Source: Gemmatimonadaceae bacterium
GTDB taxonomy: Bacteria; Gemmatimonadota; Gemmatimonadetes; Gemmatimonadales; Gemmatimonadaceae
Length of the DNA: 64,000 bases
Direction: 5' to 3'
Assembly (NCBI GenBank): GCA_013813715.1
Contig: JACCRF010000034.1
Span: 1-64,000 of the forward strand
Shown here: positions 42,723-51,653 of the stretch, piece after piece
How positions within the stretch are numbered: position 1 is the first letter of the stretch
Layout: each line of letters opens with the position of its first letter
Translations under genes and position numbers: made by a program
The notes under the pieces: model-generated
The model's input: only the letters and a program-made list of their open reading frames with translations
What the model was told of the DNA's origin: nothing
Database searches by the model: none

Positions 42723-43505
42723 CTATTGTGCGGCGGTCACCGCAAAGCCGCTGATGTGCACGTCAAGGTTGTGGTTCACACGGATACCAGCGATCCCGGC
42801 CGTTCCGGAGTTCGGACCGCCTGGGTCCGCAACAGCGCGGGGCAGAGTGTGCACCTCGGTGCCGTTGACGCGGAAACTCACCTTGTCGGTGTCGAGCACA
42901 ATCGCGAGCGAATTCGTCGCCTTGCCGCTCGCGTCGATTGCCTTGATCGCCGGGTGCGCGGTCCAGTCCACCATCTTGTGAATGACGGTGTCACTCGCGC
43001 GATGATTGATGAGGAACTTTCCGTCCTGCCTCACCAGGAAGTAGCCGTAGCTCTGGTTGGGCGCCTCCAGGTTGGTGCCGCCCATGAAGACGCCGTACCC
43101 TTCCGGGTGGGTTGAAGCCTTGGTCTGCGTAAACGTCGCCTGCACTGTGTAGTTCCCGCGGGCTGTGTTCGCGGGGTTCCAGTACGTCGCTGCCGGGCCG
43201 GCCGTGATGTGGAAGCCATCCCCCATGCCAATGAATTTCGTGTCGGCGAGAGTGCGGCCGGAGGCGGCGGCACGCGGATCGAGCCGTCCGGTCCACCCCG
43301 GTACTTTTATTCCCCCGTCGGCTATGACCTTATCGGGGTCGGCTGACGTGTTCGCCGCCGCGGTCGGCATCGGGGTTGCGGTCGAGGTAGTTGCCGGCAC
43401 TGAGGCCTGCGGTGACGGGGCCGGGGCCGGGGCCTGCGGGTTCGGCGCCGCGCAGGCGGCAGTGGCGACGCTGAGTAGTGCGGCCGAAAGAAGCGGGTTA
43501 CGCAT
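42723..43505 (-). CDS. Lipoprotein with a concanavalin-like (laminin/DUF1080-type) beta-sandwich
   Basis: A 260-residue product. A short signal ends in TAACA; a Pro/Ala/Thr-rich linker of about 40 residues follows. The domain from about 60 has GWTGRLDP, GRTLADTKF, NYTVQATFTQ, GYGVFMGG and FLVRQDGKFLI, and further on VSFRVNGTEVHTL, the strand pattern of sugar-binding sandwich domains. I propose glycan or polymer binding at the cell surface, which is inference. The ribosome site GGAGGACAA precedes the ATG. A broken relative is at 51184-51458. Confidence 0.75.
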   Translation of the reverse strand: MRNPLLSAALLSVATAACAAPNPQAPAPAPSPQASVPATTSTATPMPTAAANTSADPDKVIADGGIKVPGWTGRLDPRAAASGRTLADTKFIGMGDGFHITAGPAATYWNPANTARGNYTVQATFTQTKASTHPEGYGVFMGGTNLEAPNQSYGYFLVRQDGKFLINHRASDTVIHKMVDWTAHPAIKAIDASGKATNSLAIVLDTDKVSFRVNGTEVHTLPRAVADPGGPNSGTAGIAGIRVNHNLDVHISGFAVTAAQ

Positions 43506-44650: not shown

Positions 44651-45934
44651 GTGAAAAAAGTGCTTGCGATCGCTTCGGCTGTCGCATTGCTGGTAGCGAT
44701 CGCGTGCGGCCGAGCCGGCGGGCTGGCGCCTGCGGCATCCATCGCAACGTCCCTGCCGACGTGGATCGCCGCGGGAGACTCTTTTTCCATCGCGCGCGCC
44801 GCACATGCCGAGTGCCCGCGCGCTCCGGTGCGATCGGCGTGCTACGAGAAGTTGATGGTCTCGATCGCCGACTCGGGGAAGGTCGGGCTCGCTATGGGAA
44901 GCCTCAACCGCCTTGGCGACCTGGACGAGGATGTTCGGCGCGACGGGCATGTATACGCACACGCGATCGGAATCGCCGCGGGCAAATCGGGCGGCGACGT
45001 GGCGTCTGCGTTCACGCCGTGCACCGAGACCTATCAATCGGGTTGTTATCACGGCGTCATCCAGGCCCGGTTATCCTCGATGGCCAGCGTCGGCTCGAAA
45101 GTAGCCAACGCTCTCTGCGAGCCGTTCCGTTCCAACCCGTCCGACCGATGGATCCGTTTTCAGTGCGTGCATGGGATGGGTCACGGATTGACGACGATGT
45201 ACGAGCACGATTTACCCCGTGCGCTCGAGAGTTGCGACCTGCTCAGAGACCCTTGGGACCGGCATTCTTGCTACGGCGGCGCATTCATGGAGAACGTCGT
45301 CAACGTGACCCAGCCGCACCACCCGACGAAGGCACTTACGCGCACGGAGAAAACTTCGCGCGAACATCACGAGCACAGCGGTATCGCCCGCTACAAGGCA
45401 ATCGATTCCACCGACGCGCTCTATCCATGCTCGGCGATGGCGAGCCGCTATCTCGAGTCATGCTACGAGATGCAGACCTCGGTGATCCTCTATCTCAACA
45501 AAGGCGACATAGGCGCCGCCGCGAAGACGTGCGACACCGCCCCGCTGGCGATGCGCCCAGTGTGCTACAGGAGCCTCGGGCGCGACATCAGCTCATACTC
45601 GGCTCAAAACCACGCCGAGGGGATCAGAATGTGTTCCCTGGGTACGGCGAGGTACCAACGCTGGTGCTTCATCGGCCTCGTCAAAAATCTCATCGATTTG
45701 AACGCGCGACCCGAAGACGGAATTGCGCTCTGCAGGAAGATCCCAGGTGCGCCGGAAAAGGCCACCTGCTATATGGCGGTTGGGGAACAGGTCACCGTTC
45801 TGAAAACGAGCGAGGACGATCGCCGCGCGTCTTGCCGCACTGCGGAGGAAGAGCACCGCCCCGCGTGCCTGTACGGTGCGGGGGTGATCAGGGAAGCCCC
45901 TGCCATTCTGGTCGAACGCCTGGATTCGCGGTAG
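44651..45934 (+). CDS. Secreted Cys-pair repeat lipoprotein, paralogue A, unknown function
   Basis: The GTG at 44651, 8 bases after GGGAGAG, opens a 427-residue product with a signal ending AIACG, a plausible lipobox. The mature chain has 18 cysteines in nine ordered pairs, each C-x(7-17)-C followed mostly by Y/F/V and often Gly (SGCYHGV, FQCVHGMGHGL, SCYEMQ, VCYRSLG, WCFIGL). This looks like a helical repeat held by disulfides, as in Sel1-type Hcp proteins, though the sequence is not theirs. Conserved His elements (YAHAIGIAAG, CYHG, HGMGHG) suggest a metal or ligand site; there is no CxxCH heme motif. Its twin follows after 136 bases. I recognise no described family. Confidence 0.85.
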   Translation: MKKVLAIASAVALLVAIACGRAGGLAPAASIATSLPTWIAAGDSFSIARAAHAECPRAPVRSACYEKLMVSIADSGKVGLAMGSLNRLGDLDEDVRRDGHVYAHAIGIAAGKSGGDVASAFTPCTETYQSGCYHGVIQARLSSMASVGSKVANALCEPFRSNPSDRWIRFQCVHGMGHGLTTMYEHDLPRALESCDLLRDPWDRHSCYGGAFMENVVNVTQPHHPTKALTRTEKTSREHHEHSGIARYKAIDSTDALYPCSAMASRYLESCYEMQTSVILYLNKGDIGAAAKTCDTAPLAMRPVCYRSLGRDISSYSAQNHAEGIRMCSLGTARYQRWCFIGLVKNLIDLNARPEDGIALCRKIPGAPEKATCYMAVGEQVTVLKTSEDDRRASCRTAEEEHRPACLYGAGVIREAPAILVERLDSR

Positions 45935-46070
45935 CCCGATCGAATCCGGAGCCCGCGTGCTTTCACAATCAAGACTTTCACAACCACAAGTTGCGTGACC
46001 GCCTGAACGTTACGACCTTAGGGCGACCCCGGAGCGTGTCCCACCGGCGCCCCGAAAGTCCCCATACCTC

Positions 46071-47396
46071 GTGCCCGTTGATCCAATGAACGCATCCAAG
46101 CGAAAGCTGGTCTGGCCAGCGTTACTCATTTTCGTCGTGGCTCTTGTCGCTGGCAGCTATGCGATGGGGCGCAATAAGGTCAGCCCCATGGACATGCTGA
46201 GGCGAGCGATTGCGCCGGAGGATTCGAGTGCCGTCGCCGTGGCGATGCATAACCGCTGCGGGACGCTCGGGGGTGACGCCAAAACCAAATGCTATTCATC
46301 CGGGCTTGATTCAATGGCCACTCGGGGCGAAGTGCGGATGGCGATGGTCACGCTGGCCCGGCTGTCGGTGCTCGACGGCGACGCAGGCCGCAACGGACAC
46401 GTGTTCGCACATGGGATCGGGATGGCAGCCGGGAGAGGCGGCGGCGACATCGCCAGGATGTTCTCCCAGTGCGACGAGAGCAACCAGTCGGGCTGCTATC
46501 ACGGTGTTCTTCAGTCGTATCTCACAGCGGCGAAGAAACTCGGGCCCGCCGAAGTCAACGCTGCCTGCCAATCATTTCGAGGTCCGAAGGCTGATCGCTG
46601 GATACTGTTCCAGTGCGTTCACGGCATGGGGCACGGGTTGACGATGTACTATGGGCACGACGTGCCCCGGGCGTTGCAGGACTGTGATTACCTGACCGGT
46701 GGCTGGGACAAGCGATCGTGTTACGCCGGGGTGTTCATGGAGAACATCGTCAACGCCCAGATGCCAAAGAACATGTCCCACGGCGACGGACACGAAGGGA
46801 TGCACATGGAAGGCGCGGCGCCGGGGCGCGTATCCAAATGGAAGGCCCTCGATAGCACCGATCTGCTCTACCCTTGCTCGATCATGAAGTCGCAGTACCT
46901 AGGGGCGTGCTATGAAATGCAAACCGCGGCAATTCTCTTCCTGAATCACGGCAACATCCAGGCGGCTGCAAAGACCTGCGATACGGCGCCAGCGGCGATG
47001 CGCCTCGTTTGCTATCAGAGCCTGGGGCGCGACATCAGTGCCTTCGCCCTTCAGGATCACGCCAAAGCCACCGAAATGTGCGCGCTGGGCACACCGAAAT
47101 ACCAGCCGTGGTGCTACTTCGGCTTGGTAAAGAGCTTCGTGAATATGAACGCCCGCGCCGACGATGGCCTGACGTACTGCAAAGGCCTCAAAGGCGAGGC
47201 GAACAAGCTGAAATGCTATGAAGCCGTTGGCGAGCAGATCGGCACGCTCCGAAACGAAAACACCGAGCGGGCAGCGCTTTGCGAGCCTTCCGAACCGGCC
47301 TATCGGCCCGCGTGTCTGTTTGGCGCCCGGGTGACGACCCTCCGGCCGCCAGGTCTGGACACGATCGATATCGCGGGGGCTCTGACACCCGGTTGA
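46071..47396 (+). CDS. Secreted Cys-pair repeat protein, paralogue B, unknown function
   Basis: A 441-residue protein (436 from ATG 46086) anchored by one N-terminal membrane helix (about residues 14-31) instead of a lipobox. It follows paralogue A through its length with the same 18 cysteines in nine pairs and the same motifs: FAHGIGMAAG, SGCYHGVLQ, FQCVHGMGHGL, GVFMENIVN, ACYEMQTAAILFLN, VCYQSLGRDIS. The loop after FMENIVN is His/Met-rich here (HGDGHEGMHMEG), where A has HH/EHHEH, so both carry metal-friendly residues at this point. The start has no clear ribosome site. The glycosyltransferase begins right after its stop. Confidence 0.85.
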   Translation: MPVDPMNASKRKLVWPALLIFVVALVAGSYAMGRNKVSPMDMLRRAIAPEDSSAVAVAMHNRCGTLGGDAKTKCYSSGLDSMATRGEVRMAMVTLARLSVLDGDAGRNGHVFAHGIGMAAGRGGGDIARMFSQCDESNQSGCYHGVLQSYLTAAKKLGPAEVNAACQSFRGPKADRWILFQCVHGMGHGLTMYYGHDVPRALQDCDYLTGGWDKRSCYAGVFMENIVNAQMPKNMSHGDGHEGMHMEGAAPGRVSKWKALDSTDLLYPCSIMKSQYLGACYEMQTAAILFLNHGNIQAAAKTCDTAPAAMRLVCYQSLGRDISAFALQDHAKATEMCALGTPKYQPWCYFGLVKSFVNMNARADDGLTYCKGLKGEANKLKCYEAVGEQIGTLRNENTERAALCEPSEPAYRPACLFGARVTTLRPPGLDTIDIAGALTPG

Positions 47397-47397
47397 C

Positions 47398-49209
47398 GTG
47401 AAGGTGCGTTGGCGGACACTCTCGGGAATTTCCGGTCTTGTAGCGGCGCTCGGCGTCAGCGTTGTTTACGCGTACTCGGGCTTCAGGCCGGCGATGCCTC
47501 ATCTCCTGATCGCTGGTGTCGCCGCCATTGCCTTCTTTTTTCAACGGCCACCCCTATCCGTCCGATCGGCAGCACCCAGCCGTAGCGACATGCTCGCTGT
47601 CGCATTTCTGCTGCTTGCCATGGCGCCGCTCTACTGGTGGCGTTTGTACTCGACGCCGTGGCAGATAAACAGCGACGAAATCACGGTCATGCTCGTCGCC
47701 AAGCGGCTGATCGCCGCACCGGATACCGACCTCCTCGGCATTGGCTCCATTTTCGGATTTCCATCAGCCGTGTTCGTATTCGTTGGCCGGCTCGCTGAGG
47801 GTCTCGGAGGCATCGATCTCTACCACTCACGCCTCGTTCACAGCACGCTGGGCGTGGGCTGCGTCATACTGGCATACGGCCTCTTTCGTCAGTTCCTCGA
47901 ACCGCTGCGGGCCGGCACGCTGGCCGTCATTCTTGGGGCTAACCACGCCCTGTTCGCGATAAGCCGGATGGCGATGCGGGAGAACACCGGCCTGTTTCTC
48001 GAGATTCTCGCGCTATGGCTCCTTGCGCGCGGGCTGCAGCGACGATCGAGAGCCGAAGTATTCCTCGGAGGGGCGACCACCGGCGTCGCATTCTACGCCT
48101 ACTTCCCGGCCCGGATAGCGCTGGTGGTCGTGGTCGCTCTGCTCTTCAGTATTCCCCTACTCAATGCCAGGCGTGAAGTACTGAAGGTCATGGGCGGGTA
48201 CACAGCGATTTTTCTGATCGGATGGGCGCTGGTAGCGGCGCCCGTTATGATCGCCAGCCGTGCGAATTCGACGCTGGCTTTCGCTTACACTCGCCAGCAG
48301 TTCCTCATCTTTCCGGAAGGGCGAAAGCTCGAGCAGGACTGGACCGGCGAAAAAACGCCAGCGGGCGCCTGGAAGGCGAACATCCGGAACGGCATGACCA
48401 TGTTCAATTCACGGATGCACGATCAGGGATACATCTATCCGAACTACAAGCATGGATTCGTCGATCCGATTACGGGGATTCTGCTCTGGCTCGGATTCAT
48501 CGTTGCAGGTGCACGGCTGCTGCGCAACCGAACTGAGCTCCTTTCCGACACGGAAAAGGGCGCAACTGCGCTCGGCGACCTGATTGCCCTGGTCGGATTC
48601 CTCACGATATACCTGTCTTCCGCTCTTGTCATCACGAAGGCGCCAAACTACACGAGGCTCCTCGTGGTGCTGCCTTTCGTGAGCTACCTGGCCGGCATTG
48701 CACTTTGGAAAATGGCGGACTGGCTGACACGCGGCCTGGCCGATGCTGTGGGGCGCGCCCGGCAGACGATGCGAGGAGCCGCAGTATGTACCGGGGTTGC
48801 CCTGGTTGCCCTGTGGAACATCAGCATTTTCAACGACTTCGTCGCCGTCGGTCGCGGCTCGGGGAATGACGTCGGCAGTACGGGACGATATGTGGAAGCC
48901 AGGAAGAATGCCGCGGGATACACGTGGGTGCTCGCGGCGGATAAGGCTAACCCATACTTCAGTTGGGGAGAGGTGTGGCAGTGGAGGGATTGGGTGGGAT
49001 TTTTCGCCGGCCCTAATCAGAATATGCTCGTTTCTCCGCTGGCCGGGCTGTCATCGCTCAACGTGACCGGAGGCTTTACGGTCTTCATTACCAACGCTGC
49101 GTGGCAATCGGTGGAGGCCCAGTTCCGACTGCGGCATCCGCTGTACGAGGTGAGCTGGCTTACGCCGGATTCACGGCTGCTGGCGGTCGACGTCCGCGGG
49201 CCAAGATAG
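47398..49209 (+). CDS. GT39/PMT-like polytopic glycosyltransferase
   Basis: The 603-residue GTG-started protein has about eleven membrane helices. An acidic loop NSDEITVM after the second or third helix corresponds to the catalytic DE-type motif of PMT/ArnT enzymes, and RMAMRENTGLFLEILALWLL is the typical conserved helix region. A soluble C-terminal part follows. Such enzymes move a sugar from a lipid-linked donor onto protein or lipid A outside the membrane. It starts 1 base after the stop of paralogue B, and a methyltransferase follows within 16 bases, so A, B and the sugar enzymes may be one unit. Confidence 0.85.
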   Translation: MKVRWRTLSGISGLVAALGVSVVYAYSGFRPAMPHLLIAGVAAIAFFFQRPPLSVRSAAPSRSDMLAVAFLLLAMAPLYWWRLYSTPWQINSDEITVMLVAKRLIAAPDTDLLGIGSIFGFPSAVFVFVGRLAEGLGGIDLYHSRLVHSTLGVGCVILAYGLFRQFLEPLRAGTLAVILGANHALFAISRMAMRENTGLFLEILALWLLARGLQRRSRAEVFLGGATTGVAFYAYFPARIALVVVVALLFSIPLLNARREVLKVMGGYTAIFLIGWALVAAPVMIASRANSTLAFAYTRQQFLIFPEGRKLEQDWTGEKTPAGAWKANIRNGMTMFNSRMHDQGYIYPNYKHGFVDPITGILLWLGFIVAGARLLRNRTELLSDTEKGATALGDLIALVGFLTIYLSSALVITKAPNYTRLLVVLPFVSYLAGIALWKMADWLTRGLADAVGRARQTMRGAAVCTGVALVALWNISIFNDFVAVGRGSGNDVGSTGRYVEARKNAAGYTWVLAADKANPYFSWGEVWQWRDWVGFFAGPNQNMLVSPLAGLSSLNVTGGFTVFITNAAWQSVEAQFRLRHPLYEVSWLTPDSRLLAVDVRGPR

Positions 49210-49224
49210 CCACCGGGATAACCG

Positions 49225-50022
49225 ATGCGAGAGTCATTCTTCGCGACACACGCGGCGATGGAGGATGCTCATTGGTGGTTCCTGGCAAGGCGCGACATTC
49301 TGGAAGTCATCCTCGCCGAGTGCGCGCGACGTGGATCGACGGGTACCGTGCTCGACATCGGCTGTGGAACGGGGGGCAACACCGCGCGTTTTGCGCTGCG
49401 CCATCGGGCCATCGGCGTGGAGCCATCACCCGAAGCGGTGAGACTTGCCCGCCAGCGGTTTCCTTCTCTCACGTTCGTCGAGGGATACGCGCCTGATGTG
49501 GTTCTCCGCGAAGCTTCGCTGGCCGATGTCTTCGTTCTTACCGACGTTTTGGAGCATGTCGAGAAAGACATTGCGCTGGTACGAAGGCTGGTTGAAGTCG
49601 CGAAGCCAGGAGCGTTTTTCATTGTCACCGTTCCGGCGAACGAGAAACTCTGGACTGAACATGACGTGTCGCACGGGCATTATCGTCGTTACTCGAAGGA
49701 ATCCTTCACAACCCTGTGGGCAGGGGCTGGGGTTGAAACGACGCTGATGTCTTTCTTCAACACGAGATTGCTGCCCCTGGTTTACGTCGTTCGGCAGTGG
49801 GAGCGATGGAAGGGCAAAGCATCGGGTGAGGCCGGCACCGACCTCAGCCTGCCCCGGCGGCCGCTCAATTCCCTCCTTCGCAAGATCTTCGCGGGGGAGT
49901 CCGCGGCGCTGCGCCGCCAGTTCGGGAAGCCCGGGTTCGCATATCGAAATGGTGTCAGTCTGATCGGTGTATTCCAGAAGCACCATAGAGAACGTGCTCG
50001 AGCTCATTCGCCGGATGACTAG
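49225..50022 (+). CDS. Class I SAM-dependent methyltransferase
   Basis: A 265-residue protein. Motif I is VLDIGCGTGGNT at about residue 36, and VLTDVLEHVEKD and PGAFFIVTVPANEKLW follow as later motifs, with the HGHYRRYSKE segment seen in methyltransferases of glycan or ubiquinone type. No membrane helix. Placed between a PMT-like and a GT2 enzyme, it may methylate a sugar or a lipid carrier; the substrate is not decided by sequence. Confidence 0.9.
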   Translation: MRESFFATHAAMEDAHWWFLARRDILEVILAECARRGSTGTVLDIGCGTGGNTARFALRHRAIGVEPSPEAVRLARQRFPSLTFVEGYAPDVVLREASLADVFVLTDVLEHVEKDIALVRRLVEVAKPGAFFIVTVPANEKLWTEHDVSHGHYRRYSKESFTTLWAGAGVETTLMSFFNTRLLPLVYVVRQWERWKGKASGEAGTDLSLPRRPLNSLLRKIFAGESAALRRQFGKPGFAYRNGVSLIGVFQKHHRERARAHSPDD

Positions 50023-50100
50023 CCCCACGTCGTTGTTCCATGCAAGCTTCTCCTCCGCCAGATACCCTCGTGCCCGATCTTTTTTCCACGACAGACACGC

Positions 50101-50883
50101 ATGCTCAGTGTTGTGATCCCAGCGTTCAATGAGGCTGCACGACTGCCCGCCACCCTCAGGATGACGCTCGACTATTTCCGAAGCACCGGCGCCGATTTTG
50201 AGGTCATTGTCGTTGACGATGGGAGCAGCGACGACACTGCGGAGAGAGTACGCGAAATCTCTGTTCATTCGAGTCAGGTCCGCCTGATTCGGCTCCCGCA
50301 GAATTTCGGAAAGGGCTTTGCCGTCCGCAGCGGCATCATAAACGCGGAAGGCCAGCGGGTGCTGTTCATGGATGCGGATGGAGCCACTCCGCTCACTGAA
50401 TTGGCCGTACTCGAAGCTGCCATGAACGAAACGGCGGCGGAAATCGTGATTGGCTCGCGCTCGCACCTGCCTGGCAGCGAGACCGTCGTCGAGGCCCGCT
50501 GGTTCCGGCACGTCGCGGGCCGGACGTTTCACCAGTTTGTCCGGCTATTGGGAGTGTCGGGGATCTCCGACACTCAGTGCGGTTTCAAGCTGTTTTCGCG
50601 CGAGGCCGCGATCGCAATCGCAGTCCGGATGAAGATGCGAGGCTTCAGCTTCGACGTGGAAATGCTCAGAATCGGGCGGGAGCTGGGGTATTCGATCCGT
50701 GAGGTGCCGGTGAACTGGACGCACATGGCAGGCTCGAAGGTCAATGTGGTTCGAGATGGCATGCTCATGGTAGCCGACCTTATCCGTATCCGACAGAACT
50801 CTCTGCGGGGAGCGTACCAGCCTGGCCGCATATCGACACCGAGCATCGAGAGCCCGCCGGTTCACGCTGAAGCCCGGGAGTGA
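50101..50883 (+). CDS. GT2 glycosyltransferase, dolichyl/polyprenyl-phosphate sugar synthase type
   Basis: The 260-residue enzyme has the GT-A marks VVIPAFNEAARL, VVDDGSSDDT, FMDADGATP (DxD-like) and DTQCGFKLFSREAA, the last being typical of polyprenyl-phosphate glucose/mannose synthases. It lacks C-terminal membrane helices. It would load a sugar from a nucleotide donor onto a polyprenyl phosphate in the cytoplasm, which the PMT-like enzyme upstream could then use. That pairing is an inference from the family roles and the short distance. Confidence 0.92.
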   Translation: MLSVVIPAFNEAARLPATLRMTLDYFRSTGADFEVIVVDDGSSDDTAERVREISVHSSQVRLIRLPQNFGKGFAVRSGIINAEGQRVLFMDADGATPLTELAVLEAAMNETAAEIVIGSRSHLPGSETVVEARWFRHVAGRTFHQFVRLLGVSGISDTQCGFKLFSREAAIAIAVRMKMRGFSFDVEMLRIGRELGYSIREVPVNWTHMAGSKVNVVRDGMLMVADLIRIRQNSLRGAYQPGRISTPSIESPPVHAEARE

Positions 50884-50923: not shown

Positions 50924-51190
50924 CTATCCAGCTCCGCTGTCGCTTTCGTCCGGCGCGCTCGATCGCGGGGTCAGCAGTCGCTGGGTGAATCGTTGAGCGT
51001 CATCCAGTCGCCTTATCTCGTTAGCGGCCGCAACTGCACTCTGTTCGAGCTCGTCGACCCGCGCCATGAGGTCGGAAATCTGCTTGTCGGAGGCCCCGAT
51101 GGGTTGGCGTCTGCTCTGGAGATAGACTCCCGCGCCGACCCCCATCACTACGACGAAGACCAGTAGCAGGACGAATAGCAGGCTCAACAT
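50924..51190 (-). CDS. Small membrane-anchored coiled-coil protein
   Basis: From ATG 51190 the product is 88 residues: a membrane helix (LLFVLLLVFVVVMGVGAGVYL) and a short heptad helix DLMARVDELEQSAVAAANE, then DAQRFTQRLL. A longer frame begins at a TTG at 51232 but runs through the remains of the neighbouring pseudogene. The end resembles the end of the 52982-53638 protein (GQRFLTRLF), so the two may belong to one family. No ribosome site is clear; expression is uncertain. Confidence 0.5.
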   Translation of the reverse strand: MLSLLFVLLLVFVVVMGVGAGVYLQSRRQPIGASDKQISDLMARVDELEQSAVAAANEIRRLDDAQRFTQRLLTPRSSAPDESDSGAG

Positions 51191-51458
51191 TGGACGGTGT
51201 AATTTCCCCGGATGGTATTCTTCGGGTTCCAATAGATCGCGGCCAGCCCAGCCGTCACATGAATTCCGCGGCCCATCGCGTAGAACTTCGTGTCGGCCAG
51301 CGTGCGGCCGGCAGCCGCCGGACAGGGATCAAGGCGGCCGGTCCAGCCCTCGACCTTTACCCCGCCGTCAGCCACGATCTTGTCGGGATCCTGGCCTGGC
51401 CGGATAGCGTCGTTACACCAAGGCAGAGCAGGGCAGCGGAAAGAATCGAGATTCGCAT
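51184..51458 (-). pseudogene. Broken copy of the concanavalin-like lipoprotein gene
   Basis: The signal peptide (MRISILSAALLCLGVTTLSG) starts at 51458 after a CTGGAGACAA site like that of the gene at 43505. The domain start (DPDKIVADGG, GWTGRLDP, GRTLADTKF, NYTVQ) lies in another frame, so one frameshift separates them, and the sequence stops at NYTVQC where the intact relative continues for another 130 residues. Two lesions and similarity to 42723-43505 indicate a decayed paralogue. Confidence 0.8.
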
Positions 51459-51653
51459 TTGTCTCCAGCGGGACTTCAAGAATGAGGGTGGGTCGAAGCA
51501 TTCAACATAGTGTATGGTAGCGGGGCAAACATGCGTCAATTGCGGGCGTATTTCCAGTTATAGGCCCCGATTCCGTGGCGGATGGGGAAGGGCGGGATTC
51601 TTGCTTGGAAAGCGTGGGACAGCGAATGCTGAAAAAGACCGAAGGAGGAGCGC

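Follow-up and report, generated by a model that had tools for sequence, protein, structure and literature searches.

Two adjacent genes, A and B, in a 64,000-nucleotide stretch of DNA from a Gemmatimonadaceae bacterium (here called the window) encode related proteins rich in cysteine and histidine. What kind of proteins are these, and what might they do outside the cytoplasm?

Genes A and B encode exported members of an undescribed family

The preliminary description placed A at 44651-45934 and B at 46071-47396, both on the + strand, and both frames were confirmed (Table 1). Gene A starts at GTG 44651, with GGGAGAG upstream, and stops at 45934. The frame of gene B is open from GTG 46071, and ATG 46086 is the likelier start (giving 436 aa) because homologues begin at that point. 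The two proteins are tandem paralogues, 48% identical over 421 residues. An N-terminal hydrophobic segment of the kind expected for an export signal or membrane anchor was found in 79 of 83 readable family members. In the AlphaFold2 model of B this region is a predicted helix, residues 8-31, in agreement with the earlier view of B as helix-anchored; A, which had been called a lipoprotein, has just the weak lipobox VAIAC. A membrane difference between A and B is therefore not established, and the suggestion that they face different membranes found no support.

A quick tree placed B with the orthologues of its genus and A as a branch just outside them, both inside one supported group of eight (98%). 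The pair thus appears to predate the genus-level split, and recent duplication as the origin of A and B is disfavoured. The locus is common to the genus, as an rpsA-like gene, a family gene and an HlyIII gene also occur together in L046.

Table 1. Genes, candidate site motifs and nearby glycosyltransferase genes in the window
Feature	Position	Strand	Description	Basis
Gene A	44651..45934	+	427 aa, ten predicted hairpin repeats, nine Cys pairs, exported, weak lipobox VAIA-C19	ORF, RBS-like GGGAGAG, Cys count
A: H100xxxH104	44948..44962	+	repeat 2, Cys-free	aligned to B H110/H114
A: C132-Y-H134	45044..45052	+	repeat 3	conservation, register
A: C172-V-H174-G-M-G-H178	45164..45184	+	repeat 4	conservation, register
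A: F-M-E, residues 212-214	45284..45292	+	repeat 5	alignment, conservation
Gene B	46071..47396	+	441 aa from GTG, helix-anchored, ten predicted hairpin repeats, nine Cys pairs	ORF, AF2 model
B: H110xxxH114	46398..46412	+	long helix of repeat 2 (helix 109-122)	both His in 85/85
B: C142-Y-H144	46494..46502	+	long helix of repeat 3	H in 84/84 non-gap members
B: C182-V-H184-G-M-G-H188	46614..46634	+	long helix of repeat 4	H184 83/85, H188 85/85
B: F222-M223-E224	46734..46742	+	long helix of repeat 5	M 83/84, E 80/84
B: His/Met-rich linker (HGDGHEGMHMEG)	46752..46856	+	between repeats 5 and 6	pLDDT ~40-52 at residues 231-250
PMT_2-type polytopic glycosyltransferase	47398..49209	+		PF13231 4e-06
GT2, polyprenyl-phosphate-sugar-synthase type	50101..50883	+		PF00535

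Pfam, NCBIfam, PADLOC and PDB were searched by sequence with A, B, alignments and distant homologues, and no family match was returned. The Sel1 profile (PF08238) did not match A or B up to E 10, or any of 36 homologues up to E 1. No TPR family matched A or B, and one weak TPR_1 match (E 0.078) was found among the 36 homologues. The PADLOC models of anti-phage defence gave no matches at E 0.1. Foldseek comparison of two models with the PDB yielded nothing at E ≤ 0.001 (best E 0.05-0.13, TM ~0.2), and a full-text literature search of partial coverage found no description of the family. The claim that no described family has this arrangement thus agrees with the Pfam, NCBIfam, PADLOC and PDB sequence searches, and the profile search against PF08238 and other families that had been proposed as a check produced no named family with known function. 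A and B are exported, membrane-tethered members of an undescribed family that is absent from family libraries.

Members were found in 92 of 395 sampled Gemmatimonadota genomes (23%), the count being the same with a single-sequence query or a broad profile. They were also present in 26 of 246 sampled genomes from the phylum that includes Nitrospira defluvii, and in the Binatota sample in 1 of 148 genomes, that of the query lineage only. A distant member with all five histidines and FMQ is carried on a plasmid of Kitasatospora purpeofusca (AP028456.1, KPHV_86690). No relative was detected in the phages and viral contigs searched, so these are not phage genes. Two records deserve comment. A complete Binatia chromosome (OX638322.1) carries an identical copy near each end, the flanks matching as well (L109 and L111), possibly because the assembly was left untrimmed at the overlap of the circle. 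L057 (JAICXS010000027.1) is labelled Nitrospiraceae, yet its family member branches within the Gemmatimonadota part of the tree; misbinning or transfer are possible.

The cysteines behave as pairs

Protein A contains 19 cysteines, namely C19, where the signal ends, and 18 more, and protein B contains 18. In both, the 18 cysteines past the N-terminal segment form nine close pairs, as first counted. The gaps within pairs are 8, 7, 15, 11, 10, 10, 10, 11 and 10 residues in A and 10, 7, 15, 11, 10, 10, 10, 11 and 10 in B, so the spacing originally given as C-x(7-17)-C narrows to C-x(7-15)-C. All gaps between neighbouring pairs are at least 21 residues in both proteins. When 18 cysteines were placed at random in the mature chain, strict alternation of short and long gaps arose in 6 of 200,000 trials.

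Conservation was assessed in 85 non-redundant family members (<85% identity). For six of the nine pairs, both cysteines are present in at least 82 of the 85; the first pair is the most variable, being complete in 69 and lost on both sides in 11. Where a cysteine was lost, its partner was also gone in 32 of 35 cases, and a non-partner in 28 of 605 (raw counts over the 85 members that ignore shared ancestry). This large contrast, together with the structure prediction, supports disulfide pairing within repeats. Cysteines that do not pair, the outcome that would have spoken against the preliminary description, were not what these counts revealed. Its remarks on the residues that follow the cysteines also held: tyrosine is the commonest residue at C+1 in repeats 1, 3, 5, 6, 7, 8 and 9, and glycine at C+3 in repeats 3, 4, 5, 8 and 10.

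Predicted fold

With the second cysteine of each pair taken as position 0 of the register, B resolves into ten repeats of ~34 residues, nine of which carry a cysteine pair. The register positions are 74, 108, 142, 182, 217, 280, 314, 348, 382 and 415, giving a spacing of ~33-35 residues, with 40 once and 63 across a linker of ~28 residues that separates repeats 5 and 6. Nine repeats had been proposed; nine cysteine pairs are indeed present, and the tenth repeat is repeat 2 (approximately residues 92-125 in B), which holds H110xxxH114 and is without cysteine in both A and B.

The AlphaFold2 model of B, made from a 36-sequence input, is all helix (pLDDT 89.3, pTM 0.84), and that of a distant Nitrospirota homologue, ~20% identical, consists of all-helical hairpins (pLDDT 85.9, pTM 0.83). 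The order of helices around the histidine motifs is the same in the two models. Regular repeats of B have a helix of ~8 residues followed by one of ~18 residues; the short helix ends at or just before the first cysteine, and the second falls within the opening turns of the long helix that comes next. Repeat 6, beside the linker, is irregular and split, and is an exception to this placement. Both models thus agree with the helical-hairpin repeat with one cysteine pair per hairpin that was originally envisaged. The models and the alignment suggest that A and B are each a solenoid of ten short-long hairpins in which a disulfide staples all but one, a construction that suits a location outside the cytoplasm.

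A conserved set of histidine, methionine and glutamate residues

The histidine motifs had been singled out as invariant, and few features of the 85 members are better conserved. H110, H114, H144, H184, H188, M223 and, in most members, E224 rank among the most conserved residues, and all are in repeats 2-5 (Table 1). The exceptions at E224 among 84 members are Q or D, and a partial, divergent member (L040) is behind several of the exceptions overall. In the register, these residues occupy C+2 and C+6 in repeats 2 and 4, C+2 only in repeat 3, and C+6/C+7 in repeat 5. Recurrence of histidine at C+2/C+6 is confined to repeats 2, 3 and 4; in the other repeats these positions are free, or R, K or E. 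As the core residues are confined to a few repeats, they are not required by the repeat fold itself. The five histidines, the methionine and mostly the glutamate are kept in the Nitrospirota and Kitasatospora homologues at ~20% identity, and are fixed even in Nitrospirota homologues that have lost other features.

In both models, B and the distant homologue, the candidate ligand residues are on consecutive long helices. Five histidines, a methionine and a glutamate so arranged are a typical ligand set, and on the strength of this conservation they most likely form a functional site, the likeliest kind being a metal site in which the histidines would lie close in space.

A natural variant of the site was also seen. 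In L005:1468-2793 (-), an otherwise normal close relative of B, R replaces the near-invariant H184 (QCVRGTGHG), and C stands in place of W212 (GDCDRRSC).

Over the 85 members, the linker between repeats 5 and 6, a low-confidence and apparently disordered loop in the model of B, is enriched in His (13.0%, elsewhere 3.2%) and Met (4.8%, elsewhere 2.5%). It has at least three histidines in 70 of the 85, some with repeats of the DHAAMGH type, and the enrichment first noticed in the two proteins of the window is therefore borne out. Stretches rich in histidine and methionine are a typical trait of copper proteins outside the cytoplasm. The loop belongs to the main branch of the family and is absent from the most distant one, so it appears to be accessory and not essential.

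Comparison with known repeat proteins

The Sel1/Hcp proteins of Helicobacter (HcpB, 1KLX; HcpC, 1OUV) are likewise exported tandem arrays of helical hairpins; each of their repeats has a disulfide, as is predicted for nine of the ten repeats here. We know of no Hcp protein with the five-histidine set or the His/Met loop. The Sel1-like repeat has 36-38 residues, and in Hcp each repeat is tethered at its end by a disulfide to the beginning of the following one (PMC3851747); the cysteines at helix ends in the model of B fit such a tethering position. In contrast to Sel1/Hcp, the new family has a period of ~34 residues, pairs a short with a long helix and does not match PF08238, and its models gave no significant PDB fold match that would place them with the Sel1/Hcp superhelix. 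Despite the similar plan, it is therefore not filed under Sel1/Hcp, as it fails the profile, period and fold tests.

A second comparison is with deoxyhypusine hydroxylase, in which four His-Glu dyads on HEAT repeats form a dinuclear site (PMC9117371). This HEAT-repeat diiron enzyme (4D4Z) is also a hairpin solenoid with ligands at equivalent positions of several repeats. The model of the distant homologue matched 4D4Z with a Foldseek probability of 0.60, the highest among the matches listed, at E 0.29 and TM 0.24-0.28, values that make the enzyme a precedent and carry no claim of homology. The new family differs from it in having HxxxH/H/HxxxH/ME without the four HE dyads, and in being exported and cysteine-rich.

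Copper genes near distant members

No universal neighbour gene was found among the family loci, and most members stand alone. A Pfam tally of 85 adjacent genes showed no enriched function, and when neighbouring ORFs were clustered by Blast, antisense shadow ORFs dominated and no universal partner emerged. On the Kitasatospora plasmid, a Caa3_CtaG gene (PF09678, 7e-74) lies 106 nt downstream of the family homologue, followed by genes for an M56-like peptidase, a BlaI-type repressor, CcsB and a CopC-CopD fusion (2e-24), the last two within 10 kb. CtaG has tentatively been assigned a role in Cu-B assembly (PMC9145763). CtaG, CopC and CopD act in extracytoplasmic copper handling, but the new family is unrelated to them in sequence and fold, and the adjacency is in one record only. 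A plastocyanin-type cupredoxin is encoded two genes upstream of one Nitrospirota member. Queries with copper genes over all loci matched at the Kitasatospora locus and one Nitrospirota locus only.

Proposed function

On balance we favour the reading that A and B are exported, disulfide-stapled repeat metalloproteins with a putative His/Met/Glu site on repeats 2-5, for which copper would be the likeliest metal. The anchored, disulfide-stiffened repeat scaffold would sit outside the cytoplasm, and the long helices of repeats 2-5 would present H110, H114, H144, H184, H188, M223 and E224 on one face, where they could form a mono- or dinuclear transition-metal site; deoxyhypusine hydroxylase provides the precedent for a His/Glu metal site on a rigid helical-repeat scaffold. 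Copper is the likeliest metal because of the methionine, the extracytoplasmic location, the His/Met-rich loop, and the copper genes that neighbour the homologue from Kitasatospora. Against copper, such genes adjoin that homologue alone, with one cupredoxin nearby in another genome. The loop-less distant branch and the R at H184 in L005 also speak against the metalloprotein reading. In many members the loop may capture or load the metal. The role could be copper delivery or storage, or that of a copper- or iron-dependent enzyme oxidising a surface substrate. Metal binding, the identity of the metal as copper, and catalysis or storage by the family are what we infer from these features.

There is a real chance that this family of helical-hairpin repeat proteins is a new metalloprotein class. 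In its fullest form the proposal would make the family a novel class of metalloenzyme or copper protein working outside the cytoplasm, a stapled solenoid with a dinuclear HxxxH/H/HxxxH/Met-Glu centre spread over four repeats, loaded by the loop and present in at least four phyla; this we advance tentatively, as possible rather than probable.

The family is common, occurring in nearly a quarter of sampled Gemmatimonadota and in Nitrospira, including Nitrospira defluvii, yet it is without a Pfam or NCBIfam model. Nitrospira are major nitrite oxidisers. No solved relative was found by sequence or fold, and a first function would be useful to know for many soil and water bacteria. The most conserved residues offer a clean and testable candidate ligand set. 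If the family binds copper, it would add a new scaffold to the bacterial copper proteins and suggest a candidate metal-handling or oxidation role in organisms that are hard to culture. The design of one disulfide per hairpin may interest engineers of repeat proteins.

Alternative readings and the glycosyltransferase neighbours

The chief rival is a disulfide-stiffened protein-binding scaffold in the style of Sel1 or TPR adaptors, whose concave face would bind a peptide or partner protein, with the histidines and the C-terminal R, K and E as contacts. Helical-hairpin repeats usually bind proteins, and the R, K and E conserved at C+6 of repeats 7-9 would give a polar groove. TPR proteins share the ~34-residue period and the helix pairs, but A and B match no TPR Pfam profile and the helices of the new family are unequal in length. 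Contact residues are, moreover, rarely fixed at 20% identity without a shared partner gene, and no conserved operon partner was found, whereas five histidines and a methionine are typical ligands. We therefore regard the scaffold reading as unlikely.

The neighbours of B in the window suggest another role, in extracytoplasmic glycosylation: with the GT2 and PMT-like enzymes, the family proteins could be a substrate, a helper or a metal-dependent sugar-modifying enzyme. The PMT_2-type gene starts 1 nt past the stop of B and is followed by a methyltransferase gene and then GT2, and a PMT-like gene is again beside a B orthologue in L045, a genome from a different family within the order. Among 81 searched Gemmatimonadota genomes that hold the family, a GT2 orthologue was present in five, in three of them less than 3 kb from a family gene. 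Such linkage in two of the four non-window genomes would occur by chance with a probability of roughly 2e-5 (our own estimate, from ~0.2% per genome), for a link that was looked for after it had been seen in the window. Further GT2, GT-C-like and sulfatase genes neighbour family genes in L032, L038 and L164. The other 76 of the 81 genomes, however, are without this GT2, so the GT2 link is a lineage trait. Nitrospira members lie in divergent orientation to a gene that we take, from the start of its sequence and without a profile, to be glnS, and Binatota members stand behind presumed methylmalonyl-CoA mutase/MeaB-like genes (mcm/meaB), named in the same way; these are unrelated neighbours. Given the rarity of GT2 and these unrelated neighbours, glycosylation cannot be the core function of the family, and a part in it, as described, is improbable.

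Least probable is a role in thiol-disulfide redox chemistry or as a chaperone, with some of the cysteine pairs cycling and histidines tuning thiol pKa: there are 18 cysteines and two disulfides adjoin a conserved histidine at C+2, but there is no CxxC motif, the cysteine spacing looks structural, pairs are lost without loss of the histidines, and repeat 2 has histidines and no pair.

Several observations concern the genes around family members. The PMT_2-type, methyltransferase and GT2 segment at 47398-50883 (+) appears to be an insertion relative to L046, where HlyIII follows the family gene. At L032:884-4296 (-), a family gene, two GT2 genes and a gene for a 535-aa polytopic membrane protein without a Pfam match form an operon-like surface-glycan cluster. 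Elsewhere in the window, a 105-aa frame at 51184-51501 (-) is probably a gene remnant: it is a truncated paralogue, with 60% identity across 91 aa, of an exported 260-aa protein without a Pfam match encoded at 42723-43505 (-).
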